A stretch of DNA of 64,000 nucleotides from Martelella sp. AD-3. GTDB taxonomy: Bacteria; Pseudomonadota; Alphaproteobacteria; Rhizobiales; Rhizobiaceae. This document shows, in pieces, positions 13,543 to 63,517 of the stretch. The translations under genes were made by a program, and so were the position numbers. The stretch covers positions 620,001 to 684,000 of the forward strand of contig NZ_CP014275.1 of NCBI RefSeq assembly GCF_001578105.1, read 5' to 3'. The notes beneath the pieces were generated by a model. It saw only the letters and a list, made by a program, of their open reading frames with translations, did no database searches and was not told where the DNA came from. The stretch's first letter is position 1. Each line of letters starts with the position of its first letter.

Positions 13543-14766
13543 ATGATGAACGCGATTGCCTATCAGATCAGGACCGGATGCCGCACGGCTCTGGCCCTCA
13601 TTGGGGTAGGCTTGCTCGCGGGCTGCGCCGGCAATCTCATGCCCTATACGTCGAATGTGCGCAATCTCATGCCCGAGGAAGCGGTGGTCATGCCGCCGCC
13701 GGGCGGGCCGGCGATCATCTCCGTTCTGGAAACGCAGTATTCGAACGCCATCGACCAGCGCATCCTGTTGCGCACCGACGCGCGCACCCCGGGCCAGAAC
13801 TATATCAACGCCGTCTTCTTCGGCACCCGCAACTATTCTCCGATGAACGGCCGGTCGCTCGACTATCGCTCGGTGACCGATCTGCGCGTCGATGAGGAGA
13901 TGCGCGAGGAACTGCCGGGCGTGAAGATGGTGCAGTCGCCTTATTACGTGCAGAACAATTACGGTCCGTTCGGCTATGCCTTCGGTTACGGGCGCGGCGA
14001 CGATCTTTGCATTTATGGCTGGCAGCAGATCAGGCCCGGGCGCGACACGCGCGCCGCCTTCGGCCAGGCCGGCACGATCCAGATCAGGCTTCGTTTCTGC
14101 GAGAGCGGCGCCAGCGAGGACGATCTGCTCGGCATCATGTATGGCTATACCGTCAATGCGGCCGTCGAGGCCTATGGGTGGAACCCCTATGGCGAACAGG
14201 CCTCTCCGCCGCCGCTCCTTGGCGAGACCGGCGCGCCGGTCTATCCCCGCCGGGCCTATGACGACCGCGCCGAACGCGTCGCCGATACCGAAAAGGTTCT
14301 GCCGGGCTCGACCCCCCGTTCAACGACGACGACGCGGACCCGCACCACGACGACGGCCCGTACGGCCGCTCCGACGGCGACCGGGGATGAGATCAGCGTC
14401 GATGTCGTGCGTCTTCCTCCCGGAAGCCTGCCGTCGGGCGGTTATGTCAACGTTCCGCCGGCGCCGGGACTTTCGCCCTCTTCCGTCACGGCGCGGCCCG
14501 GCGCTCTGCCGACAACGAGCTCTTCCTTGCCGACGCCCGGCCGCCAGACGCCTGCAGCCTCCGCGGCGCCGGCCGCCACGCCCGCGGCCTCTTCCGCCGC
14601 GACACCGGCCGCCACGCGCTCCATTCCCGTGCCGGCGCGCCCGGCCGCGTCTGCCGGGTCTGCCACGCCTGCGGCCGTCACCCGCGCACCTGCGTCCGCC
14701 ACGCGCTCCGTGCCGTCACCGCCCTGCCGTCTTCTGCCCGGCTCGACGACCGTGAGCTGCGAATAG
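13543..14766 (+). CDS. bcsN: cellulose biosynthesis lipoprotein BcsN
   Basis: A ~407-residue lipoprotein: ALALIGVGLLAGC places a lipobox Cys near residue 28 from the start at 13543, which has GAGGTG upstream; an ATG at 13471 is an alternative. The folded N-terminal ~230 residues carry YTSNVRNLMPEEAVVMPPP, ILLRTDARTPGQNYINA and a Cys-containing RIRF-like segment typical of BcsN. The C-terminal ~150 residues are low-complexity Pro/Ala/Thr/Ser and end in CRLLPGSTTVSCE. BcsN is found only in rhizobial bcs loci; its biochemical job is not established. It is followed by bcsA after 268 bases. Confidence 0.85.
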   Translation: MMNAIAYQIRTGCRTALALIGVGLLAGCAGNLMPYTSNVRNLMPEEAVVMPPPGGPAIISVLETQYSNAIDQRILLRTDARTPGQNYINAVFFGTRNYSPMNGRSLDYRSVTDLRVDEEMREELPGVKMVQSPYYVQNNYGPFGYAFGYGRGDDLCIYGWQQIRPGRDTRAAFGQAGTIQIRLRFCESGASEDDLLGIMYGYTVNAAVEAYGWNPYGEQASPPPLLGETGAPVYPRRAYDDRAERVADTEKVLPGSTPRSTTTTRTRTTTTARTAAPTATGDEISVDVVRLPPGSLPSGGYVNVPPAPGLSPSSVTARPGALPTTSSSLPTPGRQTPAASAAPAATPAASSAATPAATRSIPVPARPAASAGSATPAAVTRAPASATRSVPSPPCRLLPGSTTVSCE

Positions 14767-50427: not shown

Positions 50428-50564
50428 AATCTCTCCCCTTGAGGGGGAGATGTCGCGAAAGCGACAGAGAGGGGGAAGGGCATAAGCCTCGTACCCCGAG
50501 TTTACTGAGAAGGTTCACCCCCCTCTGCCCCTGCCGGGGCATCTCCCCCTCAAGGGGGGAGATT
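50428..50564. repeat. rhizobial intergenic mosaic repeat, 137 bp
   Basis: The ends are imperfect inverted copies: AATCTCTCCCCTTGAGGGGG at the left and its near-complement ending CAAGGGGGGAGATT at the right. Each arm is itself palindromic (CCCCTTGAGGGG; CCCCTGCCGGGG), and a TCGCGAAAGCGA hairpin follows the left arm. The form matches the RIME-type mosaic elements dispersed in rhizobial genomes. It lies between hemH and the downstream end of the 5'-nucleotidase gene. Confidence 0.8.
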
Positions 50565-54417: not shown

Positions 54418-54437
54418 AACTGTCAGCCCTGACAGTT
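54418..54437 (+). promoter_or_regulatory. lux-box-type operator A
   Basis: AACTGTCAGCCCTGACAGTT is a perfect nine-bp inverted repeat with a two-base centre, the geometry of LuxR-type binding sites. It lies 130 bases before the amidase gene. The following ~35 bases resemble those after box C, suggesting a shared promoter orientation. Confidence 0.75.
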
Positions 54438-54567
54438 CAAAAGGGCGCCGGTTCCGTTTACGAGATGTCGCCTCGGCGCGCGGCATTTCAGTCGGGTCAG
54501 TCGGTGCATGGGAAACCGGTCACGCATTCCTGCTCCCGGCCCAGGGCGAACAACGGAGGACAAGGGT

Positions 54568-55659
54568 ATGTGCACGTCGCTTCTTTACTTCGACGCTCAA
54601 AACCGGGCCTATCTGGGCCGAACGCTCGAACTCAGCATCGATCTTCCCTACCAGGTTTCCGTCTTTCCGGCAGGTCTGGCCATGGCGTCGGCCGTCGAGG
54701 GATGCAAACCCGTGACATGGACGTCGTCCCACCATTTTGTCGCGGTCACCATGCCGTCGGCCGTCCCCCGGGACGACGCCCCGTTCACATCCGAGGGCCT
54801 GAAAGTGCTCGAGGGGTTGAACGGCGCAGGCCTGACCTTCAGCGTTCAGTCCTATCCGCAGGCAGCAGGCGAGGATGGTATTCCTGACGGCGCCGCATTC
54901 GCGCTCTCCGCCGCCGATCTGGGAGCCTGGGTGCTTGGTCAGTTCGAGACAGTGGAAGAAGTGAAGGCGGCTATCGCCTCGCAGCCTGTTGCGCTGGAGC
55001 GCGTTCCGATCCTGGGCGGGCTGCGAATGCCGTTTCATTTCGCCGTCCATGATGCCCAAGGCAAGAGTATTGTCATCGAGTTTCATCATGGCGCGCGAAC
55101 CGTCTATGACAACCCGGTCGGCGTCATGACCAACGCGCCGCAGTTTTCCTGGCATCTCACCAATCTCAACAATTATACCTTCCTTGACAATATCGACCGC
55201 TCGAAGGCAAACTTCGGCTCCTATGCGGCACAGCAGTCCGGCGCGGGGATCGCGAAGGCCGGGTTGCCTGCCTCGGATACATCCGTGGACCGTTTCGTCA
55301 GAGCTGCTTTCTATGCCGAATTCGCGGAGAAGCAGGCGGAGCCCGACCGGGCGGTGCAGATGGTGGCGCATATCATGAACAATTTCGACCGCCCGCGCGG
55401 CATTGCCGTCGATTATCCGGACCAGGGGAGCAGTCATCTGCAGGTACAGGGGCAGGTCAGCGAGGAGATCGCGACGGAGTTCACCACATGGACAAGCCTT
55501 TCCGATCTGGACAGAAAGCTGTTTTTCCTGCGCGACAGCGGGGGCATGAATTACACCCGCCTCGATGTCGGCGCGCTTGCGCAGACGCCTGAGTTCCGCT
55601 CGCGCCCAATGGCGCAAATGCTGGCGGGGATGAAGGACATGACGGCGTCCTTTGCTTAG
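54568..55659 (+). CDS. choloylglycine hydrolase / penicillin V acylase family Ntn amidase
   Basis: A 363-residue N-terminal-nucleophile amidase; Cys2 (MCTSLLYF) becomes the catalytic nucleophile after Met removal. Family positions are visible as GRTLE near 18, LEGLNGAGLTF (~90), NAPQFSWHLTNLNNYT (~195) and SVDRFVRAAF. Relatives cleave bile salts or penicillin V, and Gram-negative penicillin V acylases also cleave long-chain acyl-homoserine lactones. No signal peptide precedes the Cys, so the protein seems cytoplasmic. ATG 54568 has GGAGG upstream. With a lux box before it and luxR nearby, a quorum-signal or N-acyl amide substrate is attractive but unproven. Confidence 0.88.
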   Translation: MCTSLLYFDAQNRAYLGRTLELSIDLPYQVSVFPAGLAMASAVEGCKPVTWTSSHHFVAVTMPSAVPRDDAPFTSEGLKVLEGLNGAGLTFSVQSYPQAAGEDGIPDGAAFALSAADLGAWVLGQFETVEEVKAAIASQPVALERVPILGGLRMPFHFAVHDAQGKSIVIEFHHGARTVYDNPVGVMTNAPQFSWHLTNLNNYTFLDNIDRSKANFGSYAAQQSGAGIAKAGLPASDTSVDRFVRAAFYAEFAEKQAEPDRAVQMVAHIMNNFDRPRGIAVDYPDQGSSHLQVQGQVSEEIATEFTTWTSLSDLDRKLFFLRDSGGMNYTRLDVGALAQTPEFRSRPMAQMLAGMKDMTASFA

Positions 55660-55672
55660 CGCCTCGGCCTGG

Positions 55673-55717
55673 AAATCGGAATCGATTTTCGGAAAGCACG
55701 ATGTGTCGATTCAATAG
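55673..55717. repeat. possible dispersed rhizobial intergenic repeat
   Basis: The segment around ATCGGAATCGATTTTCGG and AGCACGATGTGTCGATTCAA resembles a short element seen often between rhizobial genes; ATCGATT and the later TCGATTC half-sites recur. ACGATGTG also recurs at 55801. Recognition is from memory of such repeats and is weak. The rest of 55660-55839 shows no gene. Confidence 0.3.
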
Positions 55718-55839
55718 GTGAGAGCATGTTCGCGATTCAAGGAAACGCGGACATGCTGCGGCGCGCCGGGCCCGGAAGACGGGTTCTGTTTTCGGCACGC
55801 ACGATGTGCCGGGCGCGGTTATGACGGAGTATCCTTTTC

Positions 55840-57528
55840 ATGCTGGACTGGCTGTTCACAACGCTGCGGATGAATGTCGAAATTCCGCTGTTTCTGTCCT
55901 TGCTGCTGGGCTATTCCCTGGGACGCGTGAAAATTGCAGGCATCTCCCTCGGAGACGTGACGGCCACCTTGCTGGCCGCTCTGGTGATCGGGCAGATCGG
56001 CATTCATATCTCTCCGGACGTGAAGATCATTTTCTTCATGTTCTATCTTTTCGCTGTGGGATACAGCGCCGGCCCGCAATTTGTCCGCGGTCTGTTCTCA
56101 GGCGGCCTGCAACAGGCCCTGTTCGCGGTCCTCGTCTGCGGTCTCAGTCTTGGTTCCGTCTATCTTGCGGTCAGGATTGCCGGATACGACGTGGGTATTG
56201 CCGCGGGTCTTTATGCCGGTTCGACGACAACGTCTTCCGCACTTGGCCTTTCGCAAACCGCCATTGAGCAGTCTTCGCTCGCGGCTTCCGCGAAAGCTGC
56301 GAGCGCGCAGATACTGCCGGCGGCCTTTTCGATCAGCTATGTTATCGGGACGTTCGGATCGGTCGTCATGCTCGGCATTCTGGGGCCGAGGCTCCTGAAT
56401 ATCGATCTTCCCGCGGCTTGCCGCGACTATGCCAGGCGGATCGGCGGCGCGGACGACGATCGCGGCAGCCCGAAGGCGTGGCACCAGTATGTCGCGCGCG
56501 CCTTTCTCATCGACCCCCAGTCGGCAATAGCCGGACTTACGGTGGGGCAGACCGAGCACTTTTTCCACAATCACCGCATGTATATCGGCCGGGTCCGGCG
56601 AAACGGCGCGGTTGTCGAGGCCACGGTCGATATGGTTCTGGAGGCCGGCGATGTCGTTGCGATTGCGGGTGCGCGCGAGGTTCTGCTGGAGGAGGTCGGC
56701 AAGGCGCTTCGGGAGGTTGATGATCCCGAACTGCTCGGCGTTTCGATCGAGGGCACGGATATCCTGATCACGGCAAGGAGCATTCATCGCAAAACGCTGA
56801 GAGAGCTTGCGCAGATGCCGGAAACCCGGGGGATATTCCTGACCGAGATCCGCCGCGGGGCGATGTCCGTCGCAATTCCGATCCTGCCCGAAACGCAGCT
56901 TTTTCGCGGCGATGTGGTCCGGGTGACGGGACGTCCGGCCGACATCAGCGCCGCGGCGGGGAGGTTCGGCTACCTCGATCGCGAAACGGAACGCGCGGAC
57001 ATTGCCTTCATCGGCGCGGCCATCGTCATTGGCGCCCTGATCGGATCTCTGACGCTGAAGATCGGCGAGGTCCCGCTGACGCTTTCGACGGCTGGCGGCG
57101 TTCTCCTGGTCGGACTGCTGCTTGGCTGGCTGCGCTCGATCCGTCCCGCCTTCGGTCGCGTTCCGCGCGCGACGAGCTGGTTTATGAACTCGATCGGCCT
57201 CAACATGTTTATCGCGGTGGTCGGTCTGACAGCCGGACCCGGCATCGTTGCGGGGTTGAAGGAGCTTGGCGTCGTGTTTGTCGCGTGGACCGTTTTTGCC
57301 GCCGCTCTTCCGATGCTGCTGTCGCTCTACATCGGAAAATACCTGTTCCGGTTTGACGATGCCATCGTGCTTGGCTGCTGCGCCGGTTCGCGCACGGCAG
57401 CCGCCGCCCTGAGCATGATTACCGACCGCGCCGGAAGCCAGATCCCCGCGATCGGCTATTCTGTCGGCTATGCCACATCCAGCACGATCCTGACCCTGCT
57501 TGGGATCGTTATCGTCTTGATCAGTTGA
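55840..57528 (+). CDS. AspT/YidE-type antiporter with two TrkA-C domains
   Basis: A 562-residue inner-membrane transporter of the aspartate:alanine exchanger family. About five membrane helices (residues 1-190, with GLYAGSTTTSSALGLSQ) are followed by a soluble part (~205-385) holding two TrkA-C ligand-binding domains (GLTVGQTEHFF; ELAQMPETRGIFLTEI), then five or six helices with a second copy of the pore motif (VLGCCAGSRTAAAALSMITD). It follows the amidase after 180 bases on the same strand and may export or exchange a product of that enzyme. The substrate is unknown. Confidence 0.9.
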   Translation: MLDWLFTTLRMNVEIPLFLSLLLGYSLGRVKIAGISLGDVTATLLAALVIGQIGIHISPDVKIIFFMFYLFAVGYSAGPQFVRGLFSGGLQQALFAVLVCGLSLGSVYLAVRIAGYDVGIAAGLYAGSTTTSSALGLSQTAIEQSSLAASAKAASAQILPAAFSISYVIGTFGSVVMLGILGPRLLNIDLPAACRDYARRIGGADDDRGSPKAWHQYVARAFLIDPQSAIAGLTVGQTEHFFHNHRMYIGRVRRNGAVVEATVDMVLEAGDVVAIAGAREVLLEEVGKALREVDDPELLGVSIEGTDILITARSIHRKTLRELAQMPETRGIFLTEIRRGAMSVAIPILPETQLFRGDVVRVTGRPADISAAAGRFGYLDRETERADIAFIGAAIVIGALIGSLTLKIGEVPLTLSTAGGVLLVGLLLGWLRSIRPAFGRVPRATSWFMNSIGLNMFIAVVGLTAGPGIVAGLKELGVVFVAWTVFAAALPMLLSLYIGKYLFRFDDAIVLGCCAGSRTAAAALSMITDRAGSQIPAIGYSVGYATSSTILTLLGIVIVLIS

Positions 57529-57635
57529 GCGTTTTGCCGCTGGCGCCGGAAGCTTGACAGGTCATGCCGCCGTCGCCGTTTCGGTCTCTCGGCAAGTCGG
57601 TTCGCGCCCTCGCTGCTCCTTTGCCGCGTTTCGGC

Positions 57636-57655
57636 GACTGTCAGAACTGACAGTT
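57636..57655 (+). promoter_or_regulatory. lux-box-type operator B
   Basis: GACTGTCAGAACTGACAGTT has a perfect eight-bp inverted repeat (ACTGTCAG/CTGACAGT) with centre AA, matching box A at 17 of 20 positions. It lies 145 bases before crcB. Confidence 0.72.
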
Positions 57656-57800
57656 GCCGAAATGGCGGCATATGTTTTGATGCAGCGGAAAAGCAGGGCT
57701 GTCAGGATGGCCTGACCCATGCCGGCCGGGATGCGCTCTCGATGCCGGGACCTGCACTCTTCCACCGCACCCGAACGGCAAAACATGATGAGCGTGATCT

Positions 57801-58190
57801 TTGGTTAACTTTCTGTCTCTCGCCTTGCTGACGGCAACAGGCGGCGCCATCGGCTCGGTCTGCCGCTGGCTGGTCGGTCTGGCTTCGACCCGCCTTTGGA
57901 ACGATCATCTTCCCTGGGGGACCCTGATCGTGAATATCATGGGTTCGTTCATCATCGGCTTCGCCGTGGAACTGATCACCCACAAGCTTGACAGCTCACC
58001 TGAAATCCGCGCGCTGGTCGTAACCGGATTTCTCGGGGGCTTCACGACATTCTCGTCCTTCTCCCTCGACAACATGAATCTCGTGGCGCGGGGCGACTCC
58101 GTTCTTGCAATTGCCTATATACTCGTCAGCGTGCTGGTTTCGCTTGTCTTCGTTTTTTCAGGGTTTCATGTTGCCAGACATCTTTCGTGA
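57801..58190 (+). CDS. crcB: fluoride channel CrcB/FluC
   Basis: A 129-residue four-helix membrane protein that exports fluoride as a dual-topology dimer. The family signature GGFTTFSSFSLDN is present, with GGAIGSVCRWLV at the start and PWGTLIVNIMGSFIIGF in helix 2. The start is TTG at 57801 with a weak ribosome site; no better in-frame start is seen. No fluoride riboswitch was recognised in 57529-57800; instead a lux-type box lies there. Its stop overlaps a GTG start of the next gene. Confidence 0.9.
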   Translation: MVNFLSLALLTATGGAIGSVCRWLVGLASTRLWNDHLPWGTLIVNIMGSFIIGFAVELITHKLDSSPEIRALVVTGFLGGFTTFSSFSLDNMNLVARGDSVLAIAYILVSVLVSLVFVFSGFHVARHLS

Positions 58191-59260
58191 TCGCGAATGC
58201 GGCCTTGCCCCGGCAGGCAGCAGGCCCGATCATGTGCATTCGTCTGTCTTTGAACCCGCGAACCGGCACAATGCTTTTGAAACCATCTCCTGACCTCACG
58301 CCGATGAAACTCCTCGGCGCATTGTCAATGGCTCTCGGGGTCGTGCTGCCCTGGATGGCCGGGCTTGTGGCCGGTCAGGCAACGCACGGCGCGATCGCGT
58401 CCTTCGGCGCCTATCTGATGATGGTTTCATTTCCGCGCTTGCCCGAGGCGGGCAGAGCGAAAGTGCTGCTATCGGCCGCTTTTGTCATCAGCCTGTTCGC
58501 GATGGTCGGCGGTCGCGTCGAACTGGGCTCCGGTCCTTTCTTCGCCTGCGCGCTGGCGGCCGCCCTTGCGCAAGGCGCCGGAGAACTGAGGGGCGGCTAC
58601 CTTCGGCTGCCGGTTGCGCTTGCCGCGCTGGCGTTCTTCCTGTCCGTCGGCCAGGTTCCTGCCGGCGGTGACGTGGTCTACGGGTTGACCTTTCTCGCCG
58701 GCACGCTGTGGGCTCTGCTTTTCGTGCTCTTCTTCATCCCCGTTGCGAAAAAGGCTTTAGGTGTCGAGCGGCTCGATCTGTTGAAAAACGCCGCCCAAAG
58801 GCGCTTCCTCGCCGGTATCGCTTCGATATCTCTGCTGGGAAGCATCGCCGCCTGTTTCAGCCCGGGCTCGCACCCCTGCTGGCTGGCCGCCGCAGGCCTC
58901 AGGGTTACAAAACCGACCCGCAGGGAGACTTTGTACCGGATGAAGGCGCGGGGTCTTGGAACGCTTCTCGGGGCGGCGGCCGGCGGATTGATGCTCGGCT
59001 TCCTTGCCCCCGCTCCCTGGCTTCACGCCCTGCTGGTCGGCGCGCTGGTTTTCGTGATGCTGGTAATCGGCGCCAAACGGTACGGCATATGGTCCTTCTG
59101 TCTGACGGCTGTCGCGCTGACGTTCAACTTCTCGCCGGAAGCCGGGGCCCTGGCTATTGCCGCCAACCGGGTTCTTCTGACGATCGCAGGCATTGGCGTG
59201 GCCTGCCTGATGCTGCCGCTGTTGCCGCCTTCGCCCGATGCGGACCGGCAGGGCGGCTGA
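58187..59260 (+). CDS. FUSC-like multi-pass membrane protein
   Basis: Up to 357 residues with about ten hydrophobic segments in two halves (residues ~40-190 and ~215-345) around a short cytoplasmic loop, the plan of fusaric-acid-resistance (FUSC/YccS-type) inner-membrane proteins. The second half has PCWLAAAGLRVTKPTRRET and RGLGTLLGAAAGGLMLGF, like the FUSC repeat region. The start is uncertain: GTG 58187 overlaps the crcB stop, while ATG at 58232, 58271 or 58304 may be used. It is probably co-transcribed with crcB. The substrate is unknown. Confidence 0.7.
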   Translation: MIANAALPRQAAGPIMCIRLSLNPRTGTMLLKPSPDLTPMKLLGALSMALGVVLPWMAGLVAGQATHGAIASFGAYLMMVSFPRLPEAGRAKVLLSAAFVISLFAMVGGRVELGSGPFFACALAAALAQGAGELRGGYLRLPVALAALAFFLSVGQVPAGGDVVYGLTFLAGTLWALLFVLFFIPVAKKALGVERLDLLKNAAQRRFLAGIASISLLGSIAACFSPGSHPCWLAAAGLRVTKPTRRETLYRMKARGLGTLLGAAAGGLMLGFLAPAPWLHALLVGALVFVMLVIGAKRYGIWSFCLTAVALTFNFSPEAGALAIAANRVLLTIAGIGVACLMLPLLPPSPDADRQGG

Positions 59261-59275
59261 TCGATCGAAGAACGC

Positions 59276-59995
59276 TCAGTCGCGCAATCCGAGAGCGGCG
59301 TAGAATGCGGCGGCCTGCGCGCGGGAACTGACCGAGATCTTGGCCAGTATCTCGCTCACGTGATAGGCGATGGCGCGTTCGGTGCGCCCGACAATCAGAG
59401 CGATCTCGCTGTTGGTTTTCCCTTTCGCGATCCAGCTGAGGATTTCCACCTGCAGTCCGGAAAGCTGCTTGAAGCCGTGAACATTGTATTGGCAAGGCAG
59501 GCCTTCCGTGAAGGCCGACATCCGCGCGGTCGCCACGCTGGTGAGGATGGAGATTGCATGTGCCGTATCGGGAACATGAACTGACTTGTCGATTGTCAGC
59601 AGGGTGATCGCGCTGAACTTGCCCGGCGCGGCGAACAGCGGCAGTGTCGCGCCGCCGGCAATGCCCTGATAGCGCACATATTCGCTATAGTCCTGACGGG
59701 GCGTGCCATCCCACAAGCCGGGCTTCCAGAAGAGGGGAGCCGTGTTTGCCTTGAGGTGTGACATCAGCGGATCACGGTCGAACCACCCGTCATTCACATA
59801 GATATCGAGGTCGCGCGTCGTCCATGTCGTCAAAAGCGGCCGTTCCATGAACTGCAAAGGATCGCTGCGGTTCAGGCTGATATTGTAACTGATGAACCCC
59901 AGTTCGTTGAGCGCCTTGGTAAGGCAGGCCTCCAAATCAGGCAGGCTTTCCGCGTTCGCGATTGTGGCGCAAGCCTTTGCAAGGTGTTTGAGCAT
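59276..59995 (-). CDS. LuxR-type autoinducer-binding transcriptional regulator
   Basis: A 239-residue regulator with an N-terminal autoinducer-binding domain and a C-terminal LuxR helix-turn-helix (LSWIAKGKTNSEIALIVGRTERAIAYHVSEIL). Of the signal-pocket residues numbered as in TraR, Tyr61, Asp70, Pro71 and Trp85 align with Y66, D75, P76 and W90. Trp57 is replaced by Asp62, and Glu178 of the DNA-binding domain appears as Gln. No luxI gene is in the window, so it may be a LuxR solo or use a distant synthase. It is convergent with the FUSC-like gene; a lux-type box lies 51 bases upstream, suggesting autoregulation. Confidence 0.92.
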   Translation of the reverse strand: MLKHLAKACATIANAESLPDLEACLTKALNELGFISYNISLNRSDPLQFMERPLLTTWTTRDLDIYVNDGWFDRDPLMSHLKANTAPLFWKPGLWDGTPRQDYSEYVRYQGIAGGATLPLFAAPGKFSAITLLTIDKSVHVPDTAHAISILTSVATARMSAFTEGLPCQYNVHGFKQLSGLQVEILSWIAKGKTNSEIALIVGRTERAIAYHVSEILAKISVSSRAQAAAFYAALGLRD

Positions 59996-60046
59996 TGTCC
60001 CCGGTCATATGCCAATGATTGGTGCAACATGTCTTCCGGTGATGAC

Positions 60047-60066
60047 AACTGTCAATCCTGACAGTT
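60047..60066. promoter_or_regulatory. lux-box-type operator C between luxR and urease
   Basis: AACTGTCAATCCTGACAGTT differs from box A at two positions (one half-site base, one centre base). It lies 51 bases from the luxR start (minus strand) and 239 bases before ureA (plus strand). The rest of 60067-60305 holds a small CGACAT/ATGTCG hairpin (60222-60238) and no convincing gene. Confidence 0.72.
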
Positions 60067-60305: not shown

Positions 60306-60608
60306 ATGCATTTCACGCCTCGAGAGATCGACAAGCTCTTGATCTACACGCTCGCGCAGGTCGCGCAGCAGCGCAAGGATCAGGGGTTGAAGCTCAACCA
60401 TCCAGAAACCGTCTCGCTCATTTCCGTGGCCGCGCTGAACGGCGCCCGCGCGGGCAAGACCGTCGAGGAGGTCATGGAAATCGCGCGCAAGGAAATCACG
60501 CGCGACGATGTGATGGAAGGGGTCGTCGACATGATCCCCTACGTCCAGGTGGAGGCCGTCTTTACCGATGGCAGCCGTCTCGTGACCATCCATGATCCGA
60601 TTCAGTGA
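60306..60608 (+). CDS. ureA: urease gamma subunit
   Basis: A 100-residue structural subunit of urease, starting [20 protein letters not shown] and ending in PIQ. It carries [21 protein letters not shown] and [20 protein letters not shown]. Urease hydrolyses urea to ammonia and carbamate, feeding the GltBD pathway. It is the first gene of the operon here; ureD, which often precedes ureA in rhizobia, is not upstream. AGGGGAG lies before the ATG. Confidence 0.97.
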
Positions 60609-60618
60609 GGGCTTGAAC

Positions 60619-61026
60619 ATGACGAGCGAGAAGAAAACCCCGGTCGGCGGCCTGGTCCTCGGCAAGGGCGATATCGAGATCAATGCGGGCTATCCGACGA
60701 CCACGCTCAAGGTGCGCAACACCGGTGACAGGCCAATCCAGGTCGGCTCGCATTTTCACTTCTTCGAGGTCAATTCCGCGCTGGAATTCGACCGCGAACA
60801 GGCGTTCGGCAAGCGCCTGAACATTCCTGCAACCACCGCCCTGCGTTTCGAGCCGGGCGATGAGAAAGAGGTCACCCTTGTTCCCTATCAGGGCAAGCAA
60901 CGGGTGCTCGGCTTCAATGGCCTCGTCAACGGCTGGGTCGGCGACGAGAGCTACAATGACAGCCGCCCGCGGCTGGTCGACGCGATGGAGCGCGCGGAAC
61001 GCTACGGCTTCAAGTCGTCCAAGTGA
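60619..61026 (+). CDS. ureB: urease beta subunit
   Basis: A 135-residue subunit with the family features [34 protein letters not shown] and [19 protein letters not shown]. The start at 60619 follows a GTGAGGG site ten bases after the ureA stop; an upstream ATG at 60592 would overlap ureA. UreB and UreA are separate proteins as in most bacteria. Confidence 0.97.
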
Positions 61027-61062: not shown

Positions 61063-62781
61063 ATGGCCAAGATTTCAAGACAGCAGTATTCAGACCTCTA
61101 TGGTCCGACAACGGGCGACAAGATCCGCCTCGGCGACACCGATCTCTATATCGAGATCGAAAAGGACCTCCGGGTCTATGGCGAGGAAGCCGTCTATGGC
61201 GGCGGCAAGACGCTGCGCGACGGCATGGGCTATGATAACGAGCTCACCAGCGCCGCAGGCGCACCCGACCTCGTCATCACCAACGTCACCATCCTCGACG
61301 CCGTGCAGGGCGTCATCAAGGCTGATGTCGGCGTCAAGAACGGCAATATCTGCGCCATCGGCAAGGCCGGCAACCCGTCCACCATGTCGGGCGTGACGCC
61401 CGGACTGGCGCTTGGGCCGGGCACCGACGCGATCTCGGGCGAGCACCTGATCCTGACCGCCGGCGGCATCGACGCCCACGTCCACTTCATCTCGCCCCAG
61501 CAGGCGGAAGCCGCGCTTTCCAACGGCGTCACCACGCTGTTCGGCGGCGGCATCGGCCCGACCGACGGCACCAACGGCACCACCATCACCCCCGGCACCT
61601 GGAATGTCGAGATGATGCTGCGTTCCTTTGACGGCTGGCCGGTCAATGCCGGCGTGCTCGGCAAGGGCAATGTCTCCGCCCGTCTGCCGATCGAGGAGCA
61701 GCTCCGCGCCGGCGTCATGGGGCTGAAGATCCACGAGGACTGGGGCAGCACGCCGGAAGCGATCCGCACCTCGCTGCGCGTCGCCGATGAGTTCGACGTC
61801 CAGGTCTGCATCCATACCGATACGCTGAACGAGGCCGGCTTCGTCGAAAACACGATCGCCGCCTTCGAGGGCCGCACCATCCACACCTACCATACGGAAG
61901 GTGCGGGCGGCGGTCACGCGCCGGACATTATCCGGGTCGCCGGCCAGTCCAACGTCATTCCGAGCTCGACCAATCCGACGCTGCCCTATGGCATCAATTC
62001 GCAGGCCGAATTGTTCGACATGACGATGATCTGCCACAATCTCAGCCCCAAGATCCCGACCGACGTCGCGTTCGCCGAAAGCCGCGTGCGCCCGGAAACC
62101 ATCGCGGCTGAAAACGTGCTGCACGATCTCGGCGCGATCTCGATCCTTTCCAGCGACAGCCAGGCCATGGGCCGCGTCGGCGAGAACTGGGCGCGCACCA
62201 TCCAGACCGCGCATTTGATGAAGGACCGGATGGGCGCCTATGACGGCGATAGGTCGGGCAATGACAACGAACGCGTTCTGCGCTTCGTCGCCAAGGTTAC
62301 GATCAATCCGGCGATCGCCCAGGGCGTCAGCCATGTGATCGGCTCGGTCGAAGTCGGCAAGATGGCCGATCTCGTGCTCTGGGAGCCAGCCTTCTTCGGC
62401 GCCAAGCCGAAAATGGTGATCAAGGGCGGCCTCATCTCCTGGGCGCTGATGGGCGATCCGAACGCATCGCTGCCGACGCCGCAGCCGGTTCTCTACCGTC
62501 CGATGTTCGGCGCCTACGGTTCGGCGCTGCCGAAGACCCGCGTCACCTTCACATCGCTGGCAGGCTATGAGGACGGCATCGTCGACCGCTACCAGCTCCA
62601 GTCGCAGGTGGTGCCGGTCTATGGCACGCGCACGATCAGCAAGAGCTCGATGGTGCGCAACAGCACGCTGCCGGAGATTGAGGTCAACCCGGAAACCTTC
62701 GCGGTGACGGTCAACGGCAAGCACGCGACCGTCGAGCCGGCGACCACGATCCCGCTGAACCAGCTTCACTTCTTCAGCTGA
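61063..62781 (+). CDS. ureC: urease alpha (catalytic) subunit
   Basis: A 572-residue nickel amidohydrolase. Ni ligands and active-site motifs are intact: the HVHFISPQQ histidines, carbamylated Lys222 in [34 protein letters not shown], the flap-region [11 protein letters not shown] with its catalytic His, and [12 protein letters not shown]. It ends LHFFS. Thirty-six bases separate it from ureB. A perfect 11-bp hairpin follows the stop. Confidence 0.98.
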
Positions 62782-62929: not shown

Positions 62930-63517
62930 ATGATCCTTGTCGAAAAAATCCTTGGCAACCTGAAGGATGCCGACTGGCACAAACGCTCCCACGAGGCGAC
63001 GGTCGACTACCTCGCGCTCGAACAGTGGGAAGCGCCGAAGAACCGCCTGCGCAAGGCCAGCGAGGGCGGAACCGAACTCGCGATCTCGCTGGCGCGCTCG
63101 GAACATCTCCACAATGGCGATGTCCTTTATTACGACGAGGCCAGCAACACCATCATCGCTGCGAAGATTGCCCTGAAAGAGGTCATGGTGATCGAGCTCG
63201 AAGGGCTCGAAACCCTGGCGCCGCAGGAGATTCTTCGGGTGTGCTTCGAGCTGGGCCACGGGCTCGGAAACCAGCACTGGCCTGCGGTGATCAAGGGCAG
63301 CACCGTCTATGTGCCGCTCTCCGTCGATCAGAAGGTCATGGCCTCGGTGATGAAGACCCATGCCTTCGAGGGCGTGAAGAGCCATTTCGCGCCGGGCGAG
63401 GAGATCGCCGCCAAGCTCGACGCGCGCGAGGTGCGCATGCTGTTCGCCGGGGCCGACGCGACGCCGCATCACCACCATGACCATGGTCACGCCCATGGCG
63501 ACCATCACCACCACTGA
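62930..63517 (+). CDS. ureE: urease nickel metallochaperone UreE
   Basis: A 195-residue homodimeric nickel carrier that delivers Ni2+ to the urease apoprotein. The N-terminal peptide-binding domain is followed by the metal-binding domain with FELGHGLGNQHWPAVIKG and a conserved His. The C terminus is a His/Asp-rich tail (TPHHHHDHGHAHGDHHHH-like) that stores nickel. It starts 148 bases after ureC, beyond the hairpin, and precedes ureF. Confidence 0.96.
   Translation: MILVEKILGNLKDADWHKRSHEATVDYLALEQWEAPKNRLRKASEGGTELAISLARSEHLHNGDVLYYDEASNTIIAAKIALKEVMVIELEGLETLAPQEILRVCFELGHGLGNQHWPAVIKGSTVYVPLSVDQKVMASVMKTHAFEGVKSHFAPGEEIAAKLDAREVRMLFAGADATPHHHHDHGHAHGDHHHH

Follow-up and report, generated by a model that had tools for sequence, protein, structure and literature searches.

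A LuxR-type regulator and its lux-type boxes mark a probable acid-resistance regulon in Martelella

Martelella sp. AD-3 encodes a LuxR-type regulator beside three lux-type boxes in a 64,000-nucleotide stretch of its genome (NZ_CP014275.1, positions 620,001 to 684,000), which is called the window here and is numbered from its first letter. The luxR gene (59276 to 59995, minus strand) is surrounded by genes for an amidase, an AspT-type antiporter, CrcB, a FUSC protein, and urease. We propose, with a probability of roughly 0.78, that LuxR is a solo that directly controls a dispersed acid/pH-homeostasis regulon, probably as an activator, by binding AACTGTCAGNNCTGACAGTT as a dimer. Moreover, LuxR probably is not tuned to ordinary acyl-homoserine lactones (AHLs). 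An earlier note on this DNA had read the locus as a LuxR regulon that formed a quorum-quenching circuit. The regulator and boxes indeed mark one regulon, with the amidase, the transporter, and crcB-FUSC among its members, but a quorum-quenching circuit was not supported.

Results

The boxes lie at 54418 to 54437 (AACTGTCAGCCCTGACAGTT), 131 bp upstream of the amidase start codon; at 57636 to 57655 (GACTGTCAGAACTGACAGTT), 146 bp upstream of crcB; and at 60047 to 60066 (AACTGTCAATCCTGACAGTT), 52 bp upstream of luxR on the minus strand and 240 bp upstream of ureA on the plus strand. The earlier note had placed three palindromes at these positions, and all three match its pattern with no mismatch, are intergenic by our own gene calls, and are the only such sites in the window when up to 3 mismatches are allowed. 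Lux boxes are 18- to 20-bp palindromes of the form NNCT-N12-AGNN, a form that all three boxes share. Three pattern matches in 64 kb compare with a mean of 0.04 and a maximum of 2 in 100 dinucleotide shuffles. Nor do boxes occur at random density across the 5.04-Mb home genome, G000: 8 places matched with at most 3 mismatches, and the 4 other than the boxes lay scattered, with 3 mismatches each. A control pattern read backward matched 3 places in the whole genome. A fourth box stands 6.8 kb beyond the window (G000:C1:690806-690825), 111 bp upstream of a nikABCDE-like five-gene ABC importer, with 2 mismatches in one reading direction and 1 in the other, and all four boxes fall within 16.4 kb. 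The amidase, transporter, crcB, FUSC, and luxR genes are as the note named them, LuxR having Autoind_bind and GerE domains, but the urease at box 3 and the nickel importer at box 4 had been overlooked. At box 2, a sigma-70-like promoter (57647 to 57676, plus strand; CTGACA-18-TATGTT, 9/12) has its -35 hexamer inside the right half of the box. The promoter is weak on its own, because 4 such sites were found between 54200 and 61000 and 1.2 were expected from shuffles.

The boxes define a gene set across the genus. We analyzed 13 genomes, G000 included, which are kin and not independent. This LuxR is encoded by seven of them (G000, G001, G002, G003, G005, G006, and G011). A search for the symmetrical consensus with at most 3 mismatches returned 39 distinct places in the seven luxR-positive genomes, against 11 in the six without luxR. 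Among the 39, 24 adjoin the gene set, 7 are one recurrent element, and 8 are other 3-mismatch places. Every place with at most 2 mismatches in luxR-positive genomes (19/19) adjoins the gene set, and the single such place in luxR-less genomes, in G007, is within a predicted open reading frame (ORF). Members of the set are urease, NikR-controlled nickel uptake, AspT and the amidase, CrcB, and weak-acid efflux, with glutamate or oxalate decarboxylase in some relatives. Fisher values, in which kinship is ignored, were 0.0047 for nik, 0.021 for ure, 0.00012 for a box at urease, 0.0047 for genomes with a box, and 0.19 for LuxI. We conclude that the boxes are neither chance matches nor a dispersed repeat, both being ruled out by the shuffles, the whole-genome scan, and the genus-wide gene partners. 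Sites were also scored in bits with a weight matrix. Because the matrix was built from box sites that it also scores, high scores on those training sites are circular, and the matrix is useful for new sites and control loci. Three of the eight unrelated 3-mismatch places were examined; those on C1 of G001 and C2 of G002 are inside predicted ORFs, and that on C1 of G003 is between ORFs. Further targets may exist, as the G002 place (L057:4122-4141) and the G003 place (L049:6733-6752) score 22.7 and 17.8 bits, respectively, both away from acid genes. The recurrent element, a conserved AACCGTCAG.TCAGA.AGTT, is shared by 11 of the 13 genomes irrespective of luxR, and its G000 copy (G000:C1:2913887-2913906; L058) runs into the end of a small ORF prediction.

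How the boxes are arranged differs among the relatives. A box precedes YtcA in the YtcA-HlyD-FUSC-OEP-CaCA-AspT-YrhK-amidase operon of G001, G005, and G006, and a weaker site of 16 to 17 bits lies about 50 to 60 bp upstream of the amidase in the same genomes. G003 has two boxes between gadB and an amidohydrolase-efflux operon, and the boxed operon of G002 encodes DUF1275, oxalate decarboxylase, an MFS protein, and the amidase, with the oxalate decarboxylase family above its cut-off. A glutamate decarboxylase gene adjoins luxR in G001, G003, G005, and G006, and GadB exceeds its cut-off of 380.4 bits in G001 (639.5 bits) and G003 (650 bits). The luxR gene itself is preceded by a box at 51 to 54 bp in the four genomes measured (G000, G001, G005, and G006). 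In G006, a box with 3 mismatches stands at the gene for ClcA, a protein that scores above its curated cut-off; the corresponding ClcA sites in G001 and G005 reach just 9.6 bits. Among the 20 sites listed, some from relatives depart from NNCT-N12-AGNN, with CC for CT, and the ClcA site of G006 is one that departs. A lipoprotein with META/MliC/YscW domains is divergent from ClcA across the lux-like box of G006 (L053:13183-14478 and 14605-14624), and it stays beside ClcA in G001 and G005.

The urease operon downstream of box 3 comprises ureA (gamma subunit, 60306 to 60608), ureB (beta subunit, 60592 to 61026), ureC (61063 to 62781), and ureE (62930 to 63517), all on the plus strand, and runs on beyond the window through ureF (from 63533), ureG, ureD, a urea transporter, amt, and a CitMHS/ArsB-like carrier (L012:3533-9506). 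The ureA and ureB genes were named by family scan and the urea transporter and Amt are above curated cut-offs; ureC, ureE, ureF, ureG, and ureD were named by gene order, aided for ureC by its sequence, and not by a family-library scan. The boxed urease (UreA, 99% identical) is present in five genomes (G000, G001, G005, G006, and G011), all luxR positive, and in each a box of 32.6 to 33.4 bits lies upstream of ureA. A second urease (UreA, 52 to 55%) is present in all 13 genomes, with no site of at least 9 bits within 1.5 kb at any of the 13 loci. A match to 5_ureB_sRNA (RF02514) lies antisense within ureC (window 61213 to 61510, minus strand; 66.1 bits, gathering score 40 bits) and is probably due to the conserved coding sequence and not to a genuine antisense RNA.

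Nickel uptake is probably under the control of a box and a second operator. The nik genes are found in six genomes (G000, G001, G002, G005, G006, and G011), all luxR positive, and a box precedes them in all six. The nik promoter of G000 contains GTATGA-N16-TCATAC with no mismatch, which is the operator found before nikA in Escherichia coli (PMC7055735, in part). The exact sequence occurs in 7 of the 13 genomes, and the same 7 have a match to NikR_C; six of these also have the importer, and in the seventh, G010, the site and the nikR gene of that genome are some 250 bp apart. Those of G000, G010, and G011 are NikR proteins of a more distant kind (52 to 54 bits versus 93 to 95 in the others), NikR of G006 is above its curated cut-off, and nikR of G000 is far from the nik genes, at C1:2488089. 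Unlike that of E. coli, the NikA-like protein of Martelella falls below the nickel cut-off (117.7 versus 393 bits), but nickel as the cargo is independently supported by the exact NikR operator in the importer promoter. Also unlike E. coli, the nik genes have an upstream lux box, 34 to 37 bp from the NikR operator in four of the six genomes and 132 to 133 bp from it in G001 and G005. The spacing suggests that nikA may be under an activator plus a nickel-dependent repressor.

LuxR might instead regulate nitrogen or urea use, such that urease, the urea transporter, Amt, and nickel serve urea as a nitrogen source and the remaining genes are hitchhikers. The box before ureABCEFGDT-amt in 5/5 genomes that have the operon, the box before nik in 6/6, and the inclusion of a urea transporter and amt in the operon are all as expected. 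G003, however, has luxR and boxes with neither the boxed type of urease nor nik, and its boxes are instead those beside gadB. Moreover, it is not obvious how ClcA, GadB, and oxalate decarboxylase would serve nitrogen use, and the urease that every genome carries is the one that is box free. We therefore consider a nitrogen regulator improbable.

The amidase (54568 to 55659, plus strand) belongs to the choloylglycine hydrolase (CBAH)/penicillin V acylase family of Ntn amidases (PF02275, 152.8 bits; cut-off, 20.4). Its start was set at 54568 (MCTSLL, GGAGG upstream) and not at 54508 because Cys2 then becomes N terminal, and no signal peptide was apparent by eye. Residues C2, R18, N85, N189, and R242 are kept, with E21 where 2oqc, the only solved relative shown over that stretch, has Asp. 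The N-terminal Cys and the R, N, N, and R residues are found in 26/26 genus copies returned, one of which, in G008, contains an internal stop. The scores for named enzymes fall short of the NCBIfam equivalog cut-offs, at 146.3 versus 350 bits for bile salt hydrolase and 128.9 versus 600 bits for penicillin V amidase. Among the luxR-positive genomes, three (G000, G011, and G002) have the amidase in a boxed operon, and the other four (G001, G003, G005, and G006) have it no more than 16 kb from luxR. At least one CBAH-family amidase is also present in all 13 genomes. Among the luxR-less genomes, G004, G007, and G012 carry a GadB-DUF900-amidohydrolase-efflux-YrhK-amidase island (L144, L143, and L142) and G009 carries an amidase-AspT pair, with no lux box at any of these loci. 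Because the amidase adjoins AspT and/or gadB in these four of six genomes, its steadier partner appears to be the acid-resistance module, and LuxR appears to be the variable part. The stretches read around the amidase of G008 and G010 show no such partners, and the G008 contig ends about 0.5 kb beyond the gene. No convincing common palindrome that could be a shared operator was found in 11 intergenic stretches of G004, G007, G009, and G012. In G004 and also in G007, an ATTGCAACTTGCAAT repeat precedes the gene for YrhK. Relatives of YrhK on plasmids were also followed up, a lead that gave nothing.

How LuxR is set is suggested by its ligand pocket. The protein has an autoinducer-binding domain (PF03472, 46.8 bits; cut-off, 23) and a helix-turn-helix domain (PF00196, 43.4 bits; cut-off, 23.5), and a fold search returned TraR, RhlR, LasR, and SdiA among the top rows. 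In TraR numbering, the AHL pocket is formed by W57, Y61, D70, P71, W85, and G113 (PMC10134790, in part). A homologue search in which 8,000 candidates were scored gave 18 proteins including that of the window, which was aligned with 10 of the others. Five pocket residues (Y66, D75, P76, W90, and G115) are invariant in 11/11 rows. The position of TraR W57, however, is D, E, or Q in all 11 rows (D62 in the window) and D in two plasmid relatives, such that the six-residue pocket is incomplete in 13/13 proteins. LuxI, the maker of AHLs, had no match to PF00765, the one AHL synthase family searched for, in G000 or in any of the seven luxR-positive genomes; the same probe returned four LuxI matches in luxR-less G004 and G007, two in each (L078 to L081).

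The quorum-quenching proposal was that LuxR senses an AHL and that the amidase destroys it, either to limit its own circuit or to block other species. The amidase is boxed or close to luxR in 7/7 luxR-positive genomes, its catalytic residues are kept, and five of the six pocket residues of LuxR are invariant. Self-limitation calls for a self-made AHL, however, and no LuxI match was found in the seven luxR-positive genomes. Moreover, the W57 position is polar throughout, the amidase keeps company with acid genes where luxR is absent, a family amidase is common to all 13 genomes, and urease, nickel, and ClcA are left unexplained. We therefore reject quorum quenching as the main function, given the absent LuxI match, the loss of W57, and the acid-gene partners, and consider the proposal as a whole very improbable, although the amidase itself might hydrolyze AHLs.

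Alternatively, LuxR could be an eavesdropper that reads the AHLs of neighbors and prearms acid resistance. The fold and most pocket residues match AHL receptors, and E. coli SdiA, likewise a LuxR solo that acts on an acid fitness island, activates gad genes in an AHL-dependent manner (PMC2812512 and PMC7286202, each in part). The polar residue at the W57 position in 13/13 proteins argues against eavesdropping, and SdiA was not among the residue-by-residue alignments shown. Eavesdropping is the strongest of the alternatives, and yet we think it unlikely. SdiA differs from the Martelella LuxR in that the latter has D, E, or Q at the W57 position, with 19% identity in a structural alignment, and in that Martelella has boxes at the effector operons themselves, several in number, among them those for urease and nickel uptake.

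The regulon appears to be confined to the genus in the genomes searched. Among 61 relatives, 13 of them of the genus, eight matched LuxR at an E value of 1e-20, namely, the seven luxR-positive genomes and G028 of another genus (29% identity). Among 385 genomes of the class, G000 was the sole match at 1e-40, with at most 7 candidates scored per genome in the rows shown. The same regulon was not found outside the genus in either set.

The remaining genes of the locus are also on the plus strand. AspT (55840 to 57528) is an aspartate-alanine antiporter by TIGR03802 (550.2 bits; cut-off, 546.95), and the window holds AspT but no decarboxylase in the stretch read. CrcB (57801 to 58190), a fluoride exporter, and a FUSC_2 family protein of the weak-acid efflux type (58187 to 59260) were named by family scan. 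Riboswitch control of crcB was considered and dropped, as Rfam gave no fluoride riboswitch between 50000 and 64000 at E values up to 1. Farther away, subthreshold Rfam matches at 50428 to 50564 (mir-2545 on both strands, MIR1858, and whalefall-1) suggest a long inverted repeat between ferrochelatase-like and 5'-nucleotidase-like genes, named by eye, that is perhaps a dispersed repeat element.

Discussion

How LuxR would promote acid resistance can be outlined from its putative targets. The boxes, their gene partners, their co-occurrence with luxR, the loss of the W57 residue, the lack of a LuxI match, and the NikR operator are computed results. From them we infer that the boxes are bound by this LuxR, that it activates, that acid triggers the response, and that the cell does not itself make the ligand as an AHL. 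Upon the signal, LuxR would bind the boxes, autoregulate, and raise the output of ammonia from urea, backed by the supply of nickel, while also raising amino acid/proton cycling and weak-acid export. The regulon would include the dedicated urease with its urea and ammonium transporters, the NikR-controlled nickel importer, AspT and the intracellular Ntn amidase, CrcB, and the FUSC exporter of weak acids. Some relatives would add glutamate decarboxylase, an H+/Cl- exchanger, and oxalate decarboxylase. CrcB would fit an acid regulon, as HF enters cells at low pH, and ClcA supports amino acid-dependent acid resistance.

Several observations weigh against an acid regulon under this LuxR. The acid role is read from gene families, and urease might be there to provide nitrogen. 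In G000, G002, and G011, gadB was absent from the stretches read, although no genome-wide search for it was made. In G003, luxR has no preceding site of at least 8 bits, and the amidase site scores only 9.6 bits. Moreover, luxR of G011 is split between two frames (L054:9217-9932) and luxR of G002 lacks residues 1 to 72 (L046:10164-10664), with the boxes retained in both genomes. Two plasmid relatives with about 40% identity, from Ponticoccus and Nitratireductor, lie in other contexts, away from acid genes, and upstream one has a site of just 10.5 bits and the other has none. The boxes could also be bound by either of two further autoinducer-domain proteins of G000, and -10 elements are weak at all boxes but box 2.

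Parts of the system have parallels. Brucella likewise has two urease clusters per genome, ure1 and ure2, the second of which carries a urea transporter. Urease genes of Brucella are raised at pH 4.5, but the main text of that report does not contain the word LuxR (PMC8710502, in part). Plant-associated solos of the OryR/PsoR type resemble the Martelella LuxR in that the AHL pocket is altered at the W57 position, but they have M at W57 and W at Y61, whereas Martelella has D, E, or Q at W57 and keeps Y61 (PMC10134790, in part). Neither urease nor acid resistance nor Martelella is mentioned in the main text of the same review. Our search of open-licence literature gave no report of LuxR boxes at genes for urease or nickel uptake, which is not proof of absence. 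The action of SdiA on gad genes is a functional precedent, and the LuxR box at urease and nickel genes would be the new part.

Why a LuxR with an altered pocket stands over acid genes invites a more tentative proposal. Perhaps a branch of quorum-sensing receptors turned into a dedicated acid-stress regulator, in which the lactone-binding W57 was exchanged for an acidic or amide residue (D, E, or Q), the pocket came to read a non-AHL ligand or pH itself, and boxes were added to operons of an acid island that relatives carry with neither LuxR nor boxes. If so, the nickel operon would be a two-input switch at which the LuxR box requests urease capacity and the NikR operator checks nickel. LuxR solos are common, but to our knowledge few come with a regulon defined by boxes or with a ligand that is known. 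In Martelella, the regulon is readable in the sequence, and its members share a theme. Moreover, the genus is a natural experiment, as much of the same acid island occurs with LuxR and boxes in some species and without both in others. Two questions become testable: which signal a LuxR without W57 responds to, and by what route a family of receptors comes to control a new set of genes.

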